Source: Chitinophagaceae bacterium
Lineage (GTDB): Bacteria > Bacteroidota > Bacteroidia > Chitinophagales > Chitinophagaceae
Assembly: GCA_025363075.1 (NCBI GenBank)
Contig: JANYEP010000039.1
Location: 1-33,130 of the forward strand
Direction: 5' to 3'
Length of the DNA stretch: 33,130 nt
This document shows, one piece after another, positions 1-26,168 of this stretch. The position numbers and the translations under genes are program-made. The notes below the pieces were generated by a model. It was not told the DNA's origin, did no database searches, and worked only from the letters and a program-made list of their open reading frames with translations. Positions within the stretch are counted from its first letter, which is position 1; each line of letters opens with the position of its first letter.

Positions 1-3000
1 ACCAAAATTCCAAGAGTAGGTAACTGCATTAATTGAACTATTTGTGAAAACAAAACTGTTTCCATTTAAGCACTCAATAGTATTGTTTACATTAAATGTT
101 GCTGCTGGTGGATTAGAAAAAATTACAGTTTGAGTAGTAGAATCTTTACAACCATTAGCGTTTGTTGTTAATAGTTTTACAATATAAGTTCCTATTGTTA
201 AGTAAGTATGAGTAGGGTTTGTGGCAATAGAAGTTGTTCCATCACCAAAATTCCAAGCATAGCTGATAGCACCAGTACTCGTGTTGTTAAATATAAGTGT
301 TAAGTTATTAGTACAACCAGTAGTTCCTGTAAAAGTGAATGCTGGTAGGGCATCAGCAACAACAGTTACAGGCAAACTAAGACTATCAATACAACCATTT
401 GTATTTGTAACAATCAATTTTACTGTATAGTTTCCGGATGCTGTATAAGTATGTGTAGCTGGTGTTGCAAGAGTAGATGTAGCACCATCACCAAAACTCC
501 ATAAGTATGATGTGGTATTAGATGAGGTATTAATAAAACTGTAAGCATTACCAATCAAGCACTGTGTAGCGTTACCATTAAGTGTAAATCCAGCAGTAGT
601 ATGTGGGTTGAAAATTAGTGTTTGTTTCGAGCTATCAACACAAGAAAGGCTTGCGTCATATACTGTATATTTTACTACATAAGTTCCAATACTGCTGTAA
701 GTATGTGATACATTAAATAGCGTTGTTGAAGTAGCACCATCACCAAAATTCCAGGCAGAGAAACCTGTGTTGGTATTATTTGTTTGGGCAAACTGTGCAG
801 TCAAATTATTGCAAGATTGATATGTTGCAGTAAATGTTGCATCAGGACTAGCTAATACAGTAACTGTAGTAGTTGCAGAATCTGTGCAGCCATTTGCACT
901 TGTTGCAAACTCTTTTACAGTAAATGTTCCAGCAATTGTGTATGTGTGTGACACACTTGAACCAGTTGCAGTAGCTCCATCACCAAAATTCCAGGAATAA
1001 CTAGCAGCAGTTAAAAAGGCATCACCAAAAGCAAAACTGTTATTTTTTGAACACTGTGTTGAAGTTGAGATAACTGTGATTCCAAGTTGAGGTTTTGGAT
1101 AGAATGAAATTATTTGTGTTGATGTATCGCTACAAGTTCCACCAAGGTTATAACCAATATTTGTTACTGTATAAGCACCTGTAGAAGGGTAGGTGTGAGA
1201 TGTAGAAATACCTGCATTTGTTGTTGATCCATCACCAAAACTCCAGAAAGTAGAAGGAGTTGCACCTACGTGTGCCAAGCTAAATTGTGCTGCTAAATTA
1301 TTACAAGGTTGATACGTTGCATTAAATGCAGCATCTGGACTTTGACGAACAGTAACGTTTTGTGTTGTTGAATCTTTACATCCAGCAGCATTTGTAACAA
1401 TTTGTTTAATTGTATAATTAGTTGCAATGGTATATGAATGTGATGGAGGGTTTGCCAATGTTGAGGTTGCACCATCGCCATAACTCCATAAATATGAAGT
1501 TGCTCCAAAAGAGGCATCAAAAAATTGGAAGTTATTTCCTTTTGAACACTGAGCTAATGGCATACTACTGAGATGCGTAATTCCAGCAATTGGGCTTGGG
1601 CTGAAAGTAATTATTTGTATCGCACTATCGCTACAAGTAAATGTTGCATCATATGTAAAATATTTAACAGTATATGTGCCTGTTGTTGCATAAGTATGTG
1701 ATGCACTAAAAACATCGCTTGGTCCATTTCCATCTCCAAAATACCAAGCAGAGAAAACTGTATTGGTTGTATTTATTTGAGCAAACTGTGCATTTAAATT
1801 ATAGCAAGGTTGATATACTATATTAAATGCAGCAAGTGGGTTTGGCAATACAGTAACATTTAAGGTAGCAGTATTAGTACAACCCAAATTGCTTGTTGCA
1901 GTTTCGGTAATAGTGTAGTTGCCCGCACTAGCATAACTATGTGAAGCACTAATGCCGTTGATAATAGTTCCATCACCAAAATTCCAAGACCAACTGTTAG
2001 CTTGTGCAAATGCGTCTGCTACATTATAGATATTTCCATTAAGACACTGTGTTGTTGCAGCAGGTGAGTTTTGAAAAATACCAAGGTTGGGTAATTTAAA
2101 GAAACTTACAATTCTTGTAGTGGTGTCAATGCAACCAGATGTACCACTTACACCTGTGCCACCTGTAATAAGTGTAATAGTGTATGTACCTTGAGTTGCA
2201 TAAGTTTTTAGAGGGTTAGGTTGTAAAGAGGTGTTACCATCGCCAAAGCTCCAAGAGAAGTAAGATTTTTGATTATTATTAGATAAGCTATCATCCAATC
2301 CAATTGTTAAATTGTTGGTGCAACCTGTTGCACCACTTGTTATTCTTATACTACCAACAGGATTTTTATTAACTGTTGCTATTGTTGAAGTACTATCCTT
2401 ACAACCTTGTGCATTGGCAACAACTAATTTTACTATGTAGCTGCCTGTTGTTACATAAGTGTGTGCAGGAGGTGTGGCTAAAGTTGAAGTAGTACCATCA
2501 CCAAAATTCCATAAGTAAGAAACAGCATTATTAGAGCTACTAGCGAAACTAAAATTATTTTGTCCTTTATTGTAGCATTGGGTAAGAGGAGTTATGCTTG
2601 AAATTTGTGCAACAGGTTTTGCTGTTAATGTAACAGTTTGTGTTGCACTATCAACACAAGCAAATCCTGCTGTATAAGCATAATATTTTACTGTATAAAC
2701 TCCATTTGAAGCATAAGTATTTGTTGCACTATACACATCACTTGCTCCACTTCCATCACCATAATCCCAGGCAGAGAAAACTGTATTAGTTGTATTGATT
2801 TGAGCAAAATTTACAGTTCTTGTGCACGCTTGATATGTAACAGTAAATGCTGCATTAGGGCTTGGTAAAACTGTAGCAGTAAAAGTGGTGCTATCCTTAC
2901 AACCATCAACAGTAGTACCTATTAATTTTGTAACATAAGTACCAGCAGTTGCATACACTTTTGTTGGTGGGTTTGTTAAAGTTGATGTAAAACCATCACC

Positions 3001-5961
3001 AAAACTCCATTGATAACTATTGGTGAATAATGACAAATTAGAAAAAGTATAACTATTGCCATTCAAGCATTGTGTAGCAGTTGGTAAACTAAATCCAACA
3101 GCAGGCACTTGATAAAAAGTAACTGTTTGTATTGTGCTATCCTTGCACCCATTAGCGTTTGTTACTAAAAGTTTTACTGAATATGTACCTGCAGAAGAAT
3201 ATACTTTAGTAGGGTTTGTTGCAGTTGATGTAGAGCCATCACCAAAACTCCATAAATATGTTAGCCCTGTACCTGTTGATGTATTTGTTGGTGTAATTGT
3301 TCTGCTGCTTGTGCAACCTGTTGTATTGGTTATTGTGAATGCTGCAACAGGTGCTGCTGATACTGTAATTATTTGAGATGCACTATCTGTGCAACCACTT
3401 GCATTTGTTGCAAAAAGCTTTACAGTATATGTGCCTGCTGTAACATAGGTTTTAGTAGGATTGGTAACATTAGAAGTAATACCATCACCAAAATTCCATA
3501 AATAAGTATTGGCACCAGTTGTGGTATTAGTAAATGTAAAATTACCACCATTGATACACTGGCTATTGGTATTGGTAGTAAATGAAGCATTTGGTATTGG
3601 ACTAAAAAGAACTGTTTGTGTTGTGCTATCCTTACAACCATTTACACTTGTTGCTACAAGCTTAATGGTGTATAATCCAGCAACAGTATATGTTTTAGAA
3701 GGATTGTTTGCAGTGGAGGTTGTTCCATCTCCAAAATCCCAATTGTAAGAAATACCTGTTCCTGTTGATGTATTTATAGTGCCAATTGTTAAATTACTTG
3801 TGCAACCAGTGTTGCCTGTAACAGTAAATGCAGCTACTGGTTTTGCTAACACAGTTACTATTTGTGTTGTGCTATCCTTGCAACCACTTGCATTTGTAAC
3901 TACTAATTTTACAGTATAGACTCCTGTAGAAACATAAGACTTAGATGGATTAGTAACAGTAGATGTAATACCATCTCCAAAATCCCAGAAATACGAAACG
4001 CCTCCAACAGAATTATTGGTGAAAGTAAATGTGTTGCTATTGATACATTGGTTATTTACATTTGTTGCAAAAGCAGCTGTAGGCTTATTTGCAAATGTGA
4101 TGCTATGTTCTGTACTATCCTTACAACCAGCAAAGTTTGTAGCAACTAATCTAACAATGTAGAAACCAACAGCAGCATAAGTATTACTTGGGTTAGTTGC
4201 GGTAGAAGTATTTCCATCACCAAAGCTCCATAAATATGTGTTGCCAATACCTGTTGAGGTATTGGTGAAACTCTCATTTAAGTTTGAAGAACAACCAGTA
4301 TTACCATTAATTGTAAATGCTGGAACTGGTTTATCAACAACTGTGATGGTTTGAGAAATACTGTCTTTGCAACCATTTGCATTCGTTACAATTAACCTCA
4401 CATTGTATGTTCCACCTGTAGAATATGCTTTGCTTGGACTAATTAAAGTTGAAGTAATACCATCGCTAAAATCCCAGAAAACACTTGTTACGAATCCACT
4501 TGAGGTATTGTTGAAGATGAACAAATTATTGTTTATACATTGGGTTGTGGTATTAATGGTATAGTTAGCAGTTGGCTTTGTATCAACCACTATGTTTTGT
4601 GTAATGCTATCCTTGCAGCCACTTGAATTTGTCGCTACTAATTTTACTGAATAAGTACCAGGACTACTATATGTCTTGGTTGGAGATGTTGCTGTCGAGG
4701 TAGAGCCATCACCAAAATCCCAACTGTAAGTATTACCACTTCCTGTGGTAGAGTTGTTGAATGTAATGTTAAAATTGTTAGAACATAAGGTGCTACCAAC
4801 TGTAGAGAAGCTCACTATTGGTGCTGCTAAAACTGTTACTGTTTGTGTTGTAGAATCTTTACAACCATTAACATTTGTTGCAACTAATTTAACACTGTAA
4901 ACACCAGCAGCAAAATATGTGTGAGTGCCGTTGGTGGTGGTTGAAGTAAGTCCATCACCAAAATTCCAACTGTATGCATTACCAATTCCTGTAGAGAAAT
5001 TTGGAAAGCTAAAACTATTGCCTATTAAACATTGGGTAGATGTATTTACCAAGAACGATGCAACAGGTTTGTCCAAAACATTTATTGTTTTGCTAATACT
5101 ATCACTACAACCATTATTGCTTGTAGCAACAAGTTTTACTATAAATGCACCAGCAGTAGGGTAGGTGTTACTTGGATTGGTAGATGTTGAAGTGTTACCA
5201 TCACCAAAAGACCAAGAAAATGTTTCAGTACCAGATACAATAGTTGTTGTATTTGTAAAATTAAAATTTGTACCAGAGCAAGGATTTGAATTGCTAAAAG
5301 TAAAGTTGGGAACAGGCTTTGGTGTAACTGTTACAGTTTTTGTTGAGCTGTCTTTACAACCATTTGTTCCAGTTGTGGTTAATATTACATTATAACTACC
5401 TGCTGCGATGTAACTATAATTACTAATGTTAGTAGTGTTTGTAGCTATACCATCACCTAAACTCCAGTGATAGCTTGATATACTACCAGTAGAAGTATTT
5501 GTGAAGCTGAAACTATTGCCATTTAAGCATTGTGAATTATTATTTACAGTGTAAGTCGCACTTGGTTTTGGAAGTAAAACAATATCTACACCATTATCAG
5601 TTCCTATAGCTACAGGCGAAGAGCTTATTACTCTTATTCTATAGCCAGAACCAAAAGTTGTAGATGGTGGAATGATGGCAATAATAGAACCAGAGGTTGT
5701 TCCAGTTGTACTTCCAATATTTATTGGGGAAGCAAAATTACCACTTGCATCACTCAATTGCACGGTAAATACATTTGTTGGATCTACACAATCTGTTAAT
5801 GTAAATGGAACAGAAATAACTGTTCCTGCACAAATAGTGTTGGGGGCAATAGTTCCTGTTGTAATAGTTGGAACACACAACAAATGGTTGTCTGTAGCAA
5901 GTGCTTTAAATCCTACAATTTGGATTGTAAAAAGGACTGCTAATAGTAAAATTTTCTTCAT
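1..5961 (-). CDS. Giant secreted PKD-repeat protein (C-terminus beyond window)
   Basis: This partial gene has one open minus-strand frame from ATG at 5959-5961 to base 1 (1,987 codons, no stop seen). Residues 1-22 form a signal peptide (MKKILLLAVLFTIQIVGFKALA). A non-repetitive N-terminal domain of about 140 residues follows, then 23 PKD-type beta-sandwich repeats. Each carries the family signature W-x-(F/Y/L)-G-D-G; the Trp codons begin at 5464, 5212, 4966, 4720, 4474, 4228, 3985, 3739, 3496, 3247, 3007, 2767, 2509, 2251, 1984, 1744, 1486, 1243, 991, 751, 499, 253 and 10. Mean spacing is about 83 residues. Every motif lies in the same phase, so I see no frameshift. Each repeat typically ends NGCKDST and begins with another Cys, giving one possible disulfide per domain. 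Such proteins are usually surface adhesins or matrix components in this phylum; export by T9SS is inference because the C-terminus is not visible. One repeat (4474) has Ser for Gly in the motif. Confidence 0.93.
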   Translation of the reverse strand, partial: MKKILLLAVLFTIQIVGFKALATDNHLLCVPTITTGTIAPNTICAGTVISVPFTLTDCVDPTNVFTVQLSDASGNFASPINIGSTTGTTSGSIIAIIPPSTTFGSGYRIRVISSSPVAIGTDNGVDIVLLPKPSATYTVNNNSQCLNGNSFSFTNTSTGSISSYHWSLGDGIATNTTNISNYSYIAAGSYNVILTTTGTNGCKDSSTKTVTVTPKPVPNFTFSNSNPCSGTNFNFTNTTTIVSGTETFSWSFGDGNTSTSTNPSNTYPTAGAFIVKLVATSNNGCSDSISKTINVLDKPVASFLVNTSTQCLIGNSFSFPNFSTGIGNAYSWNFGDGLTSTTTNGTHTYFAAGVYSVKLVATNVNGCKDSTTQTVTVLAAPIVSFSTVGSTLCSNNFNITFNNSTTGSGNTYSWDFGDGSTSTATSPTKTYSSPGTYSVKLVATNSSGCKDSITQNIVVDTKPTANYTINTTTQCINNNLFIFNNTSSGFVTSVFWDFSDGITSTLISPSKAYSTGGTYNVRLIVTNANGCKDSISQTITVVDKPVPAFTINGNTGCSSNLNESFTNTSTGIGNTYLWSFGDGNTSTATNPSNTYAAVGFYIVRLVATNFAGCKDSTEHSITFANKPTAAFATNVNNQCINSNTFTFTNNSVGGVSYFWDFGDGITSTVTNPSKSYVSTGVYTVKLVVTNASGCKDSTTQIVTVLAKPVAAFTVTGNTGCTSNLTIGTINTSTGTGISYNWDFGDGTTSTANNPSKTYTVAGLYTIKLVATSVNGCKDSTTQTVLFSPIPNASFTTNTNSQCINGGNFTFTNTTTGANTYLWNFGDGITSNVTNPTKTYVTAGTYTVKLFATNASGCTDSASQIITVSAAPVAAFTITNTTGCTSSRTITPTNTSTGTGLTYLWSFGDGSTSTATNPTKVYSSAGTYSVKLLVTNANGCKDSTIQTVTFYQVPAVGFSLPTATQCLNGNSYTFSNLSLFTNSYQWSFGDGFTSTLTNPPTKVYATAGTYVTKLIGTTVDGCKDSTTFTATVLPSPNAAFTVTYQACTRTVNFAQINTTNTVFSAWDYGDGSGASDVYSATNTYASNGVYTVKYYAYTAGFACVDSATQTVTLTAKPVAQISSITPLTQCYNKGQNNFSFASSSNNAVSYLWNFGDGTTSTLATPPAHTYVTTGSYIVKLVVANAQGCKDSTSTIATVNKNPVGSIRITSGATGCTNNLTIGLDDSLSNNNQKSYFSWSFGDGNTSLQPNPLKTYATQGTYTITLITGGTGVSGTSGCIDTTTRIVSFFKLPNLGIFQNSPAATTQCLNGNIYNVADAFAQANSWSWNFGDGTIINGISASHSYASAGNYTITETATSNLGCTNTATLNVTVLPNPLAAFNIVYQPCYNLNAQFAQINTTNTVFSAWYFGDGNGPSDVFSASHTYATTGTYTVKYFTYDATFTCSDSAIQIITFSPSPIAGITHLSSMPLAQCSKGNNFQFFDASFGATSYLWSYGDGATSTLANPPSHSYTIATNYTIKQIVTNAAGCKDSTTQNVTVRQSPDAAFNATYQPCNNLAAQFSLAHVGATPSTFWSFGDGSTTNAGISTSHTYPSTGAYTVTNIGYNLGGTCSDTSTQIISFYPKPQLGITVISTSTQCSKNNSFAFGDAFLTAASYSWNFGDGATATGSSVSHTYTIAGTFTVKEFATSANGCTDSATTTVTVLASPDATFTATYQSCNNLTAQFAQTNNTNTGFSAWNFGDGATSTTLFNVSHTYSSIGTYVVKYTVYDASLSCVDSSKQTLIFNPHTTAGFTLNGNATQCLIGNAYSFINTSSNTTSYLWSFGDGATSTLATPATHTYTASGNYTVKLIVTNTNGCIDSLSLPVTVVADALPAFTFTGTTGCTNNLTLIFNNTSTGAISYAWNFGDGTTSIATNPTHTYLTIGTYIVKLLTTNANGCKDSTTQTVIFSNPPAATFNVNNTIECLNGNSFVFTNSSINAVTYSWNFG

Positions 5962-11426: not shown

Positions 11427-12770
11427 ATGAATAAACTTAATACATTCTACAAATCATTTTACCTGACAAAATTATTTTATATAATAGGTGCAGCTATTTG
11501 TTTGGTGTTTGCTTTATCATTTGTCATTGCTCCATTATTTATATTGGCTAAAGTTTTTCTAATTGCAATTATTGTTGTAGTTATTTTAGATAGTATTCTT
11601 CTTTTTTCAAAACGCCAAAAGTTAATGGCTGCAAGGTTTTGCAACGACAGATTTAGTAATGGAGATAACAATGAAGTGAAAATTGTCATTCAAAATAATT
11701 ACAGTTTTTCTATTTCGTTAAAAGTAATAGATGAATTACCAGCCATTTTTTTTAACAGTGTAAAACCCTTGAAACCCCTTGCCATCAAAGGAAATGACAA
11801 ACTAACTATTTCATATTTTATTAAACCAAGCACGAGAGGTAAATTTAATTTTGGTAATACTTTAATATTTGCAACATCCCCATTAAAGCTTGTAGAAAGA
11901 AGATTTAATTTTCAAACAACTCAAGAAGTAAGTGTATATCCTTCATACATTCAAATGCAGAAATTTTCATTATCTGCTGTTAGTAGTTTACATCAAACAG
12001 GAAGTAAACAAGTAAGAAAATTAGGTAATAGCGTTGAATTTGAACAAATAAAAGAGTATGTGCAAGGCGATGATTACAGAACCATAAACTGGAAAGCAAC
12101 AGCACGAAAATCTCAACTAATGGTTAATACTTATGTTGATGAAAAAAGCCAACAAGTATTTTGTGTGATTGATAAAAGCAGAAGTATGAAAATGCCCTTT
12201 GATGGATTAACTCTACTTGATTACGCAATCAATTCAAGTTTGGCTTTAAGCAATATAGCCATTCAAAAGCAAGATAAAGTTGGATTAATTTCATTTGCGG
12301 AAAAAATGGATTCATTTGTTGCAGCAGATAGAAAACCAATGCAGATGGAAGCACTGATGCAAGATCTTTACAAGCAAGAAACACAATTTAAAGATGCAAA
12401 CTTTGAAGCATTATATGCACAAGTAAGAAATAAAATTAAACAAAGAAGTTTACTAATTTTATATACCAATTTTGAAAGTGAGTACAGCCTTAAAAGACAG
12501 TTGCCTTACCTAAAACAAATAGCACATTATCATTTGTTATTAGTAGTGTTTTTTGAGAATACTGAAATAAGAAAACTGTTGGAGAAAGATGCTGAAAATA
12601 CTGAAGAAATCTATATTCAAACTATTGCAGATAAATTTTTATACGAAAAGAAATTGATGTTAAAAGAACTGAGGCATAATGGTATCACAGCTATTCTTAC
12701 AACACCAGCACAATTAACTGTTAGCACTATTAATAAATATCTTGAAATAAAAAACAGGCAAGCATTGTAG
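11427..12770 (+). CDS. DUF58/vWA-like protein, partner of MoxR
   Basis: This 447-residue protein has two adjacent membrane helices at the N-terminus (about 15-35 and 38-60), then a beta-rich region and a DUF58 domain. The family hallmark is D-D-Y-R-T-I-N-W-K-A-T-A-R at 215-227. It runs into a von Willebrand A-like fold with a MIDAS-type motif D-K-S-R-S at 249-253 for a divalent metal. DUF58 proteins are the presumed MoxR substrates or adaptors, and in Bacteroidota the cluster is linked to aerotolerance (bat genes) or envelope integrity. The ATG is 42 bases after moxR. No terminator-like hairpin was seen in the 51 bases before the desaturase. Confidence 0.92.
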   Translation: MNKLNTFYKSFYLTKLFYIIGAAICLVFALSFVIAPLFILAKVFLIAIIVVVILDSILLFSKRQKLMAARFCNDRFSNGDNNEVKIVIQNNYSFSISLKVIDELPAIFFNSVKPLKPLAIKGNDKLTISYFIKPSTRGKFNFGNTLIFATSPLKLVERRFNFQTTQEVSVYPSYIQMQKFSLSAVSSLHQTGSKQVRKLGNSVEFEQIKEYVQGDDYRTINWKATARKSQLMVNTYVDEKSQQVFCVIDKSRSMKMPFDGLTLLDYAINSSLALSNIAIQKQDKVGLISFAEKMDSFVAADRKPMQMEALMQDLYKQETQFKDANFEALYAQVRNKIKQRSLLILYTNFESEYSLKRQLPYLKQIAHYHLLLVVFFENTEIRKLLEKDAENTEEIYIQTIADKFLYEKKLMLKELRHNGITAILTTPAQLTVSTINKYLEIKNRQAL

Positions 12771-12821: not shown

Positions 12822-13826
12822 ATGCAGCCAAAAACTAATTTCGTGTTCTCAAATTCCGCAGAACCTCATCGCGATAGAACAAAAGAAATTTTAAAAGAAC
12901 ATCCCCAAATCAGAAGCTTAATTGGCAAAAACAGGTATACATTTTTATTAGTTGTTTTATTGGTTTCAATGCAAGTAGTGTTGGGTGTTTTTCTAAGTTC
13001 TGCAAGTTGGTGGCTTGTGTTCATTGTTGCATATTTAGTGGGTGCTTTTATTGATCATTCATTATTCGTTCTCATTCACGAATGCACACACAAATTAGTA
13101 TTTAAAAGCCCAGTTGCCAACAAATTGACTGGTATTTTTGCCAACCTTCCTTTAGTATTTGCAAGCAGTGTTTCATTTGAAAAATATCACATAAAACACC
13201 ATTCTTTTCAAGGTGTTTATGAGATTGATGGAGATATTCCAGGCACGGCAGAAGCCAAGCTGATTAATCACTATTTTATAGGTAAAGCAATATGGCTATT
13301 ATTTTATCCAATATTTCAAGTGTTTAGATTATCACGACTCAAGGAAATAAAAGCATTTGATGGTTGGGTAGCTTTCAATTGGGCTGTTCAAATAGTAGCT
13401 ATGACTGCTGTTTGCTATTTTTTAGGAGGCAAAAGTTTTGTATATTTTTTATGTAGTTTTTTCTTTTCTGTAGGTTTACACCCTTTGGGTGCAAGATGGA
13501 TTCAAGAACATTTTTTAACCTTTGGCGACGAGCAAGAAACCTATAGTTATTATGGCAAAATGAACAAGCTGGCTTTTAATGTTGGCTACCACAATGAACA
13601 CCACGATTTCCCTTCTATTCCTTGGAACAAATTGCCACAAATAAAAACGACTGCACCAAAATATTATAGCTCTTTGCATAGCCACAATTCTTGGCTTAAA
13701 CTGTTCTTTAGATTTTTATTTGACCAAGAGATTTCCTTATTTTCAAGAGTCATCAGAAAAAACAGAGGCAAAGTATGTTTAACAGATGAATCGAAACCAG
13801 ATGTTGATTTGATAAAAGCTGGTTAA
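12822..13826 (+). CDS. Membrane desaturase, sphingolipid delta-4 desaturase (DEGS)-like
   Basis: This 334-residue integral membrane di-iron desaturase has histidine boxes H86-E-C-T-H90, H123-I-K-H-H127 and H257-N-E-H-H261, plus a further H-x9-H at 220-230. Beyond the general superfamily, it matches from memory eukaryotic dihydroceramide delta-4 desaturase. The N-terminus (PHRDRTKEILKEHPQIRSL, 15-33) resembles the short DES N-terminal domain. The stretch ETYSYYGKMNKLAFNVGYHN (239-258) with HHDFPSIP just after, and the C-terminal HNSWLK and ISLFSRV, follow the DEGS pattern almost residue by residue. Membrane segments lie near 41-60, 62-82, 152-168, 183-200 and 204-222. The predicted role is introducing a double bond into a sphingoid or fatty-acyl chain; substrate is inference. 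It is probably a single-gene unit. Confidence 0.88.
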   Translation: MQPKTNFVFSNSAEPHRDRTKEILKEHPQIRSLIGKNRYTFLLVVLLVSMQVVLGVFLSSASWWLVFIVAYLVGAFIDHSLFVLIHECTHKLVFKSPVANKLTGIFANLPLVFASSVSFEKYHIKHHSFQGVYEIDGDIPGTAEAKLINHYFIGKAIWLLFYPIFQVFRLSRLKEIKAFDGWVAFNWAVQIVAMTAVCYFLGGKSFVYFLCSFFFSVGLHPLGARWIQEHFLTFGDEQETYSYYGKMNKLAFNVGYHNEHHDFPSIPWNKLPQIKTTAPKYYSSLHSHNSWLKLFFRFLFDQEISLFSRVIRKNRGKVCLTDESKPDVDLIKAG

Positions 13827-14189: not shown

Positions 14190-14262
<73 letters not shown>

Positions 14263-14303: not shown

Positions 14304-14389
14304 GCCCCGGTGGTGGAATTGGTAGACACGCAGGACTTAAAATCCTGTTCGCCGCAACGCGAGTAACGGTTCAATTCCGTTCCGGGGCA
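14304..14389 (+). tRNA. tRNA-Leu (anticodon UAA)
   Basis: This 86-base class II tRNA has acceptor GCCCCGG (14304-14310) paired with CCGGGGC (14382-14388), discriminator A, and no encoded CCA. The anticodon stem CAGGA/TCCTG encloses CTTAAAA, with anticodon TAA at 14338-14340. The long variable arm and the GGTTCAATTCC T arm are typical of leucine tRNA. Confidence 0.97.
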
Positions 14390-23516: not shown

Positions 23517-26168
23517 TTACTCCTTCACCACTTTAATTTTCTCACCATTGTCAAAGCTAAAAATATAAATACCATTAGCCCATTGTTTGGTGTTAATGGT
23601 TTGATGTTCTGTTATATTGTTTAATTGTTGAATCGTTCTACCAAAACAATCGGTAATAATTAAGTGTTTTACACCTTTGGTATTTACTGTTACAAAGTCT
23701 TTTGCAGGGTTAGGAAATACAGTGATAGAACTGTTGCCTTCTAACAACACAACAACAATATTTGAGTAACTAATCTTCCCATTATTCTCTATCATTTTAA
23801 GGCGATAATAGTTTACTCCTTTGTTAGGTGTTTCATCTTTTAATTCATAAACAGCACCATCTTTATTAATAGCTTGCACACTGCCCAAAGCATTGTAGGT
23901 ATTGGCATCTAAGCTTTTTTCAACAATGTATTTGTTCATATTAATTTCTGTTGCAACCTGCCAGTTAAGGGTAACAGTTTTATTGTTGTTGAGCTTGCCA
24001 GTAAAAGATTTTAATGTAACAGGAGTAATAACTGCTTTAATAATTGTTGTTGCTGTGCTACTGATTGGTAATCGATAATTGTAATATGTATTGGCTTTGT
24101 TGGTAATAATAGTCCCAGCTGTTAAATTGCTTTGTGGCTTTACTTTAAAACTCACAAAACCCAGACTGTGCAGTGCATTGGCAGATGCCTGTGGTAGTTT
24201 TATATTGAGCAATTCAAGTGTTACAACATTGCCCTTTACGGTTGTTCTGCATTTGTGAGAACTGCTTAACATTTGCAGGGTATTGGCTTGCAGCAGCGAA
24301 CTCAATGTGTCTGTAATAACAATATTGAAGGCGGTGTCTGTACCAGTGTTTTTAAAGTTAATGGTGTAATAAATATCCTTACCACTGGCTACCTGTGCTG
24401 CTGTTAAACTTGGCGTAGCCCTTTGTCCATTGGTAATGGATGCTCCTTCAACCAGCATATAAAAGCTATCGCTTGCTGCAATATTTGTTCCCAACGCAAT
24501 ACCATAATTTGTCTTTAAAGTATCGCCAATGTTGGCTGTTGATTTAACATCGTAGTATGCTGTGAAACTGTTGATTTGTCCTGGCTGCATATTGGTTTGT
24601 GCCGTGGCTATGCCATTGGCTGTAGCTATAGCATTGGCATCGGTGCAGGAATCATAATTCAAAAGATAGTAAGTATAATTTAAATACGTTGTTGGCGATA
24701 GCACACTTGTACCACAGTTTTCATACTGTACATAATAGGGCATTGCACCTCCTTGCACAGCATTAAAAACAAGTGGCACTGCAAACACAGATAAGCTATC
24801 AAATGTTGTTACCTGTTGCAAGGCAATGTCTTTAGTAACTGTTGTGTCATATTTATTAAAGTTGTATGAAACAGTTTGTGGCAAAGCATTAAAGCCTGTT
24901 GATGGTGTAATGGTTAATATATAACTGCCAAGGCTATCTGCTTGTATTTGATAAAACCCATTATTATCAGTAAAGGTATAATTGCCATTGCTCAACTGTA
25001 CTTTTACATTGGCTTTGTAAGTGTCATTGCCATCGAAAATGGAGTTGGAATTTTCATCGGTGAAGATGTAGCCTCTTATTGTGGGGTAGGTTTTTGTGTA
25101 CTTAGCTACATATTTATAACCACTTGCATTTGAAAAGTTACCTGCTGCATATATATTCTCAGCAGCATCGCTACAAATAGATGTAAAGTAATCATTTGCT
25201 GGCAATGCATTTGATCCTCCTAATTCACTCCAACTACTACCATCCCATTTAGCTATATACCTTTTGCCACTTGTATTAGTAAATTGTCCTCCTACATATA
25301 TATTACCAGTCGCATCAATACAAATAGTTCTAATAAGACCATTTGCTGACAGAGCATTCACACCAATGCCTAATTCACTCCAATTACTGCCATCATATTT
25401 TGCTACATAATAGTTGCCGCTTGCATTTGTAAAACTTCCTACAGCATAAATATTACCGACACCATCACTATAAACAGAAGAAATATCATCATTTGCAAAT
25501 AGTGCATTTGTTCCGCCCAATTTGCTCCAAGTACTGCCATTCCATTTAGCTACATATCTTTTTTTATTACCATTTACATTCGTAAAAAAAGCTCCTCCTG
25601 AGTATATATTACCAGTCGCATCACTACAAATAGAATAAATAAAACTATTTATTGAAGCTCCACCACTCAGTACATTCCAACTGCTGCCATTATATTTTAT
25701 TACACTTTTGTAGCTAGCAGCATATATATTGCCTGTAGCATCACTGCCAATAGAAAGGATAGAACCGACTCCACCGCTTGCTGACAAAGCATTTACACCA
25801 CCTAATTCAATCCAAGTATTGCCAACATATTTCGCTACGTAAAAATTCCCATTTGTATTTGTAAAAGCCCCTGCTGCATATATATTACCAGCAGCGTCAC
25901 TATAAACGGAATTTATTACATCATTTGCGGATAGTGCATTTATTCCCCCTAACTCACTCCAAGCACTACCATCATATTTTGCTACATAATATTTGCCATT
26001 TGTATTTGTAAAAACTCCTGTTGCATATATATTACCAATAGCATCACCACAAATAGAAATAATCATACTGTCAGTTGATAGAGCATTTGTACCTCCTAGC
26101 TCACTCCATTGTGCATTGGCAATATTGTTAGTAAATATCAAACCTGCAATCAGTAAAAACTTTTTCAT
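23517..26168 (-). CDS. T9SS cargo protein with seven-repeat N-terminal domain
   Basis: This 883-residue protein has a signal peptide (MKKFLLIAGLIFTNNIANAQ). Seven tandem repeats of about 45-50 residues follow (about 21-350), each starting W-(S/I/N)-x-L and containing S-D-A-x-G-N-I-Y-A-x-G-x-F-T-N, then YVAKY-(D/N)-G-(S/T). Seven such units strongly suggest a seven-bladed beta-propeller. Next is a Cna-B/SdrD-like domain (about 360-430, IRGYIFTDENSNSIFDGND), then a DUF11-like domain (about 560-680), a fibronectin-like region, and a C-terminal T9SS sorting domain (about 805-883, ITVFPNPAKDFVTV ... NGIYIFSF, ending KVVKE). It should be exported by T9SS and attached to or released from the cell surface. 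Ligand is unknown. Confidence 0.92.
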   Translation of the reverse strand: MKKFLLIAGLIFTNNIANAQWSELGGTNALSTDSMIISICGDAIGNIYATGVFTNTNGKYYVAKYDGSAWSELGGINALSANDVINSVYSDAAGNIYAAGAFTNTNGNFYVAKYVGNTWIELGGVNALSASGGVGSILSIGSDATGNIYAASYKSVIKYNGSSWNVLSGGASINSFIYSICSDATGNIYSGGAFFTNVNGNKKRYVAKWNGSTWSKLGGTNALFANDDISSVYSDGVGNIYAVGSFTNASGNYYVAKYDGSNWSELGIGVNALSANGLIRTICIDATGNIYVGGQFTNTSGKRYIAKWDGSSWSELGGSNALPANDYFTSICSDAAENIYAAGNFSNASGYKYVAKYTKTYPTIRGYIFTDENSNSIFDGNDTYKANVKVQLSNGNYTFTDNNGFYQIQADSLGSYILTITPSTGFNALPQTVSYNFNKYDTTVTKDIALQQVTTFDSLSVFAVPLVFNAVQGGAMPYYVQYENCGTSVLSPTTYLNYTYYLLNYDSCTDANAIATANGIATAQTNMQPGQINSFTAYYDVKSTANIGDTLKTNYGIALGTNIAASDSFYMLVEGASITNGQRATPSLTAAQVASGKDIYYTINFKNTGTDTAFNIVITDTLSSLLQANTLQMLSSSHKCRTTVKGNVVTLELLNIKLPQASANALHSLGFVSFKVKPQSNLTAGTIITNKANTYYNYRLPISSTATTIIKAVITPVTLKSFTGKLNNNKTVTLNWQVATEINMNKYIVEKSLDANTYNALGSVQAINKDGAVYELKDETPNKGVNYYRLKMIENNGKISYSNIVVVLLEGNSSITVFPNPAKDFVTVNTKGVKHLIITDCFGRTIQQLNNITEHQTINTKQWANGIYIFSFDNGEKIKVVKE

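Follow-up and report, generated by a model that had tools for sequence, protein, structure and literature searches.

Introduction

Enzymes of the DEGS family use two irons, bound by their box histidines, to activate O2 and take a hydrogen from C4 of the long-chain base; the family includes both Δ4-desaturase and C4-hydroxylase activities. The 4,5 double bond is what separates dihydroceramide from ceramide in animals. Unsaturated lipids have also been described among the sulfonolipids, such as flavocristamide A and a Salinibacter sulfonolipid.

A 2025 paper, in the parts of it covered here, describes bacteria as generally without such desaturases, but itself reports one d18:1 ceramide from Sphingobacterium and cites another from Bacteroides (PMC12724326). 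Our search of the open-access literature found no report of a bacterial DEGS. The sulfonolipid pathway of Bacteroidota involves the cysteate acyltransferase SulA/CapB and a 3-ketocapnine reductase, and the sections covered of the papers concerned describe it without a named desaturation of the capnine base (PMC9304779, PMC11211663, PMC10191378).

Here we analyse a desaturase gene in a bacterial stretch of 33,130 nucleotides (“the window” denotes this whole stretch), for which the original prediction had proposed a homologue of the eukaryotic dihydroceramide Δ4-desaturases. The gene product, hereafter the window protein, is best explained as a membrane desaturase of the DEGS (sphingolipid Δ4-desaturase) family, presumably with two irons. 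The family itself is not new, because Pfam's model already catches these proteins; a bacterial branch carrying the motif GARW and a sulfonolipid substrate would be new.

Domain architecture, histidine boxes and likeness to DEGS1

The desaturase gene (12822..13826, + strand) is an intact open reading frame from ATG to stop encoding 334 amino acids. The profile search proposed in the original prediction gave two Pfam domains above their curated cut-offs: Lipid_DES (PF08557), which forms the N-terminus of sphingolipid Δ4-desaturases, at residues 4–37 (12831..12932, +) including EPHRDRTKEIL, with 45.7 bits against a cut-off of 23 and an E of 4.3e-12, and FA_desaturase (PF00487; 94.3 bits, cut-off 29.7) at residues 62–281 (13005..13664, +). 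This is the single PF08557 match in the host's own genome, 14 control genomes yielded none, and both domains also exceeded their cut-offs in all six relatives scanned from elsewhere in the tree.

The three predicted His boxes are all present within the PF00487 protein as HX3H, HX2HH and HX2HH motifs, namely HECTH at residues 86–90 (13077..13091, +), HIKHH at 123–127 (13188..13202, +) and HNEHH at 257–261 (13590..13604, +). H86, H90, H123, H126 and H127 are identical in 60 bacterial rows of our alignment and in human DEGS1, represented here and throughout by an uncurated copy of its sequence. All three boxes are kept in 80 of 80 proteins (79 relatives and the window's own copy), a count that leaves aside relative L011, whose gene is interrupted at a contig end. 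The other motifs named beforehand lie at their described places: PHRDRTKEIL at residues 15–24, ETYSYYG at 239–245 (13536..13556, +), FNVGYHNEHHDFP at 252–264 and HNSWLK at 288–293. SRV, which had been described as the ending, is found at 308–310 but is followed by a further 24 residues.

BLASTP aligned the window protein with human DEGS1 at 37% identity over 319 positions, spanning residues 4–320 of 334 (E 1e-70), and the profile of our alignment (A1) gives the human sequence 283 bits. Together with the PF08557 match, this bears out the predicted end-to-end likeness to eukaryotic DEGS proteins. Domain order, the three His boxes and the ETYSYYG and NVGYHNEHHDF blocks are shared, and 46 positions are identical across the 60 bacterial rows and human DEGS1, among them every box histidine, D136, D138, E229, H230, ETxSYYG and NEHHDF. 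The two proteins differ in that the window protein has GARW (223–226) where the human protein has SGHF, W268 for human G270, and a C-terminus about 14 residues longer; moreover, unlike the eukaryotic setting, the host is a bacterium in whose assembly serine palmitoyltransferase (SPT) was not found. No solved structure was related to the desaturase by sequence at E ≤ 0.001, and an AlphaFold model built from alignment A1 reached a mean pLDDT of 60.3, with residues 225–334 mostly below 50.

Two branches of the bacterial family

The segment GARWIQEH (223–230; 13488..13511, +) carries the signature of the window protein's branch; at this place human DEGS1 and a small set of bacterial rows have GHF instead. 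Among 61 bacterial rows the signature after HP-x is GARW in 56, GGRW in one (G033) and GHF, as in human, in four, and GARW is found in 73 of 79 named relatives. Three of the GHF-type proteins come from family f24 (L153, L154 and L155 from genomes G191, G262 and G089): they are 42–48% identical to human DEGS1, the G191 protein reaching 48% compared with 37% for the window protein, and 40–43% identical to the window protein. A further GHF-type protein is a second copy (L156) in genome G467, which also holds a main-type copy as judged by score. Like the window protein, the two GHF-type proteins scanned (G191, G467) contain both Pfam domains.

A maximum-likelihood tree was built from 60 bacterial rows and human DEGS1, omitting the host's own FA_desaturase and the second copy of G467, both of which form long branches. 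Human DEGS1 grouped with the three f24 rows at a support of 100/99.9, these four standing apart from the other 57; in this the f24 rows are unlike the window protein, which lacks the SGHF signature and groups with the GARW rows outside the human DEGS1 branch. A faster tree, computed with a distant outgroup, took one bacterial row from each of 61 of the 81 desaturase-positive genomes (for G467, the second copy alone; G387 and 19 others omitted). The second copy of G467 here joined the human group as well (98). The window protein fell among rows of the host's own family (f1), adjoining that of a genome of the same genus, G550 (92). Because eukaryotes are represented by one row, on a long branch, and the root cannot be trusted, the branching does not give the direction of gene transfer.

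The original prediction is borne out in part: by domain content and end-to-end similarity the window protein does not belong among ordinary bacterial acyl desaturases, the position that had been named as contrary evidence, but in the trees it belongs to the GARW branch, whereas the one eukaryotic sequence included, human DEGS1, sits with the f24 rows. The GHF-type bacterial proteins also offer a starting point for asking where eukaryotic DEGS arose, which bacterial relatives could help to trace.

Long-chain-base synthases in the host genome

A TIGR01825 search of the host's own genome returned two alpha-oxoamine family acyltransferases at E ≤ 1e-20. One (L082) is Kbl, with 685 bits to TIGR01822 (cut-off 493). 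The other (L083) is a SulA orthologue, scoring 585 bits to PDB 7U7H and 567 bits to PDB 28EH, the title of which is “Cysteate-C-fatty acyltransferase”, versus 224 bits to the SPT structure 3A2B; 7U7H is given as SulA of Alistipes finegoldii in the part covered of its source (PMC9304779). In having SulA the host genome resembles the sulfonolipid pathway described for Bacteroidota.

SPT was found by neither of two models in the assembly. The SPT model yielded nothing at E ≤ 1e-180 and one match only at E ≤ 1e-100, its E of 4.1e-106 being the score given by Kbl. As the assembly is 95.7% complete and SPT occurs within the genus, in G550 (656 bits against a cut-off of 640, and 507 bits to 3A2B), alongside the desaturase and SulA, the missing SPT may be a gap in the assembly or a loss. 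An absence of sphingolipid genes had been named as a reason to abandon the original prediction, and the outcome is divided: SPT was not found in the assembly, but the analogous sulfonolipid cysteate acyltransferase (SulA/CapB) is present.

Co-occurrence of the desaturase with SPT and SulA

To relate the desaturase to both synthases, we used 263 genomes from two families (f1, n = 132; f3, n = 131), calling SPT at E ≤ 1e-180; shared descent was corrected only through a count by genus in f1. SPT was present in 19 of 32 desaturase-positive versus 8 of 100 negative genomes of f1 (Fisher p 7e-9), in 16/25 versus 8/75 when f1 was counted by genus (p 5e-7), and in 19 of 20 versus 35 of 111 genomes of f3 (p 7e-8). 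SulA showed no association with the desaturase in f1 (31/32 vs 93/100, p 0.68) or f3 (17/20 vs 94/111, p 1), a test of low power because SulA is nearly universal in both families. The expectation, formed once no SPT had been found, that the gene would follow SulA is not borne out by these f1 and f3 counts, and the sulfonolipid reading is therefore limited to the host genome and its SPT-less kin.

Over the two families, the desaturase occurred in 34 of 63 genomes with SPT and SulA, in 4/18 with SPT only, in 14/172 with SulA only (f1, 13/98; f3, 1/74) and in none of the 10 with neither, five of which are less than 90% complete; all 52 desaturase-positive genomes thus carry SPT or SulA. Thirteen of the 32 positives in f1 lack SPT at E ≤ 1e-180, and seven of these 13 are 99–100% complete. 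The gene therefore leans to SPT genomes, yet persists where SulA is the only detected base synthase. Three f3 genomes (G410, G457 and G506) show the opposite arrangement, with desaturase and SPT and no SulA at the threshold used.

In a draw of 395 genomes from the phylum, all 15 desaturase-positive genomes of the host's own class have SulA and seven of them have no SPT over the cut-off; the seven genomes of the class that lack SulA all have SPT over the cut-off and none has the desaturase. All boxes are kept in twelve desaturases whose genomes have no SPT above the cut-off. In families f17, f35 and f43, all 17 positives are without SulA at the threshold used, and their matches to the SPT model (E 3e-143 to 4e-158) lie below the cut-off; these SPT rows say little because most genomes outside the host's class score about alike. 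Six of these matching proteins, drawn from five of the 17 genomes, were scanned, and SPT was the best NCBIfam model for each; the protein from G070, when compared with solved structures, fitted SPT 3A2B best (421 bits).

Proposed reaction, substrate and alternative readings

If the window protein works as DEGS enzymes do, two irons bound by the box histidines would activate O2, and an N-acylated lipid would most likely lose hydrogen from C4–C5 of its long-chain base, with an electron donor presumably encoded at another locus. For the host, the likeliest substrate would be N-acyl-capnine, giving a 4,5-unsaturated sulfonolipid, since no synthase other than SulA was detected that would start long-chain-base synthesis. 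Family members in SPT-bearing relatives would most likely convert dihydroceramide to ceramide, a reading favoured there because the desaturase follows SPT. Action on a long-chain base at C4 is probable on the present sequence comparisons, and given such action we would expect, with comparable assurance, desaturation rather than hydroxylation. That this strain uses mainly a sulfonolipid substrate has, in our view, an even chance, and the reading of a DEGS-family Δ4 long-chain-base desaturase that serves ceramides in SPT-bearing relatives and sulfonolipids where SulA stands alone appears to us evenly balanced. Counting against it are the association with SPT and not SulA across genomes, the scarcity of the gene in SulA-only genomes, the SPT of G550, the positives of f17, f35 and f43 without SulA at the threshold used, and the lack of linkage to a lipid gene.

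The most direct alternative, a true dihydroceramide Δ4-desaturase that makes sphing-4-enine ceramides in a strain whose SPT is missing through a gap or recent loss, would account for the strong SPT association in f1 and f3, for the joint presence of desaturase, SulA and SPT in G550 and for the three f3 genomes that have SPT and no SulA at the threshold used; it has to contend with two models finding no SPT in a 95.7%-complete assembly and with the 13 SPT-less f1 positives, seven of them 99–100% complete, and we consider it possible but doubtful. The 4,5-unsaturated sphingoid bases of the original prediction accordingly fit the SPT-bearing relatives, where the gene follows SPT, better than the host, and for the host its fallback, some other long-chain lipid, is the likelier, since SPT was not found in the assembly and SulA is present. 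A C4-hydroxylase of the DEGS2 kind, yielding 4-hydroxy (phyto-type) long-chain bases and no double bond, is unlikely: the two activities of the family are inseparable here by sequence, and the replacement of SGHF by GARW between His boxes 2 and 3 marks the window protein's branch, but no feature was found that speaks specifically for hydroxylation.

It is highly improbable that the protein is one of the ordinary acyl-lipid or acyl-CoA desaturases of bacteria, with no more than a resemblance to DEGS. Such enzymes share the PF00487 domain with the window protein, and an NCBIfam scan gave weak DesA, DesB and CrtW matches, but these lie far below their cut-offs, no NCBIfam model reaching its own. 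The genome moreover already has another FA_desaturase, its sole other match to that domain (contig C77), which lacks PF08557 and bears little similarity to the window protein (best piece 21% over 135 positions). With PF08557 present, and an E of 1e-70 to human DEGS1 compared with 0.005 to the C77 protein, the observed likeness to DEGS is, on sequence grounds, far beyond chance, and by the same comparison the window protein is something other than an ordinary acyl desaturase.

Returning to the Δ4 long-chain-base desaturase, if the protein acts like its kin, the capacity to form 4,5-unsaturated ceramides or sulfonolipids could extend to many Bacteroidota, and the desaturase gene could be the one behind the double bond in the unsaturated natural sulfonolipids. 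Sulfonolipid Δ4-desaturation would then be a pathway step named nowhere in the parts of the literature covered. The broadest version of this proposal is tentative: a widespread bacterial DEGS branch in Bacteroidota would serve ceramide and sulfonolipid bases, the enzyme described here would be a sulfonolipid Δ4-desaturase, and the eukaryotic enzyme would share a common origin with the smaller bacterial GHF-type branch.

Distribution and genomic neighbourhood

At least 592 stretches were matched in a search of named species genomes, and at least 547 of them encode a relative. The 80 best relatives show 63–82% identity in the best segment and come from Chitinophaga, Ferruginibacter, Puia, Filimonas, Sediminibacterium, Deminuibacter, Flavisolibacter and Mucilaginibacter, all of which we take to be Bacteroidota, and from unnamed Bacteroidetes; cultured strains with names are among the carriers, such as Deminuibacter soli K23C18032701 and Mucilaginibacter lappiensis ATCC BAA-1855. 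The gene occurs in 40 of the 395 genomes drawn from the phylum, in 32 of 132 genomes of the host's own family and in 20 of 131 genomes of f3. Horizontal carriage was considered and rejected: the window protein had no match in plasmids or phages, and a search of viral contigs with an alignment of eight relatives gave 59 pattern matches, none encoding a relative.

The neighbourhood was discarded as a source of function because the genes around the desaturase in the window are not conserved next to it in relatives. A DUF58 protein gene identified by profile match (11427..12770, +) ends 51 bases upstream of the desaturase and is possibly co-transcribed with it here. The MoxR, DUF58 and OprB neighbours are each missing from the loci of all 80 named relatives, the sole DUF58 match being the window's own copy (L001); the only window genes common to these loci are response-regulator-like (L004, L008) and secreted-protein-like (L028). 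A further set of 77 desaturase loci came from 61 genomes, several of them represented twice (48 of the loci long; own copy L096 outside the list). A MoxR-like gene is near in five of these loci, four of which are one synteny in opposite orientation, and a DUF58-like gene in one, 9.6 kb off. There is thus no linkage to any lipid gene, and, as no gene recurs beside the desaturase, an SPT about 10 kb from it in one genome (G568:C65, L118) is taken as coincidence.

Two tRNA genes (14190–14262 and 14304–14389, +) lie directly downstream of the desaturase, and the genes for ribosomal proteins L3, L4, L2 and S3 are on the same contig (27689–31907, +), which we therefore regard as ordinary chromosome. 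These ribosomal protein genes and a steady GC content of 0.29–0.38 per kb across the window dismiss contamination. Two further genes were recorded in the window. A frame of at least 1987 amino acids (1–5961, − strand), open at the contig end, has repeats with words like WSFGDGxTST, presumably of the PKD type, and likely encodes a giant surface protein. An 883-amino-acid protein (23517–26168, − strand) combines DUF7619 with a Por secretion C-terminal sorting domain and is probably type IX secretion cargo.
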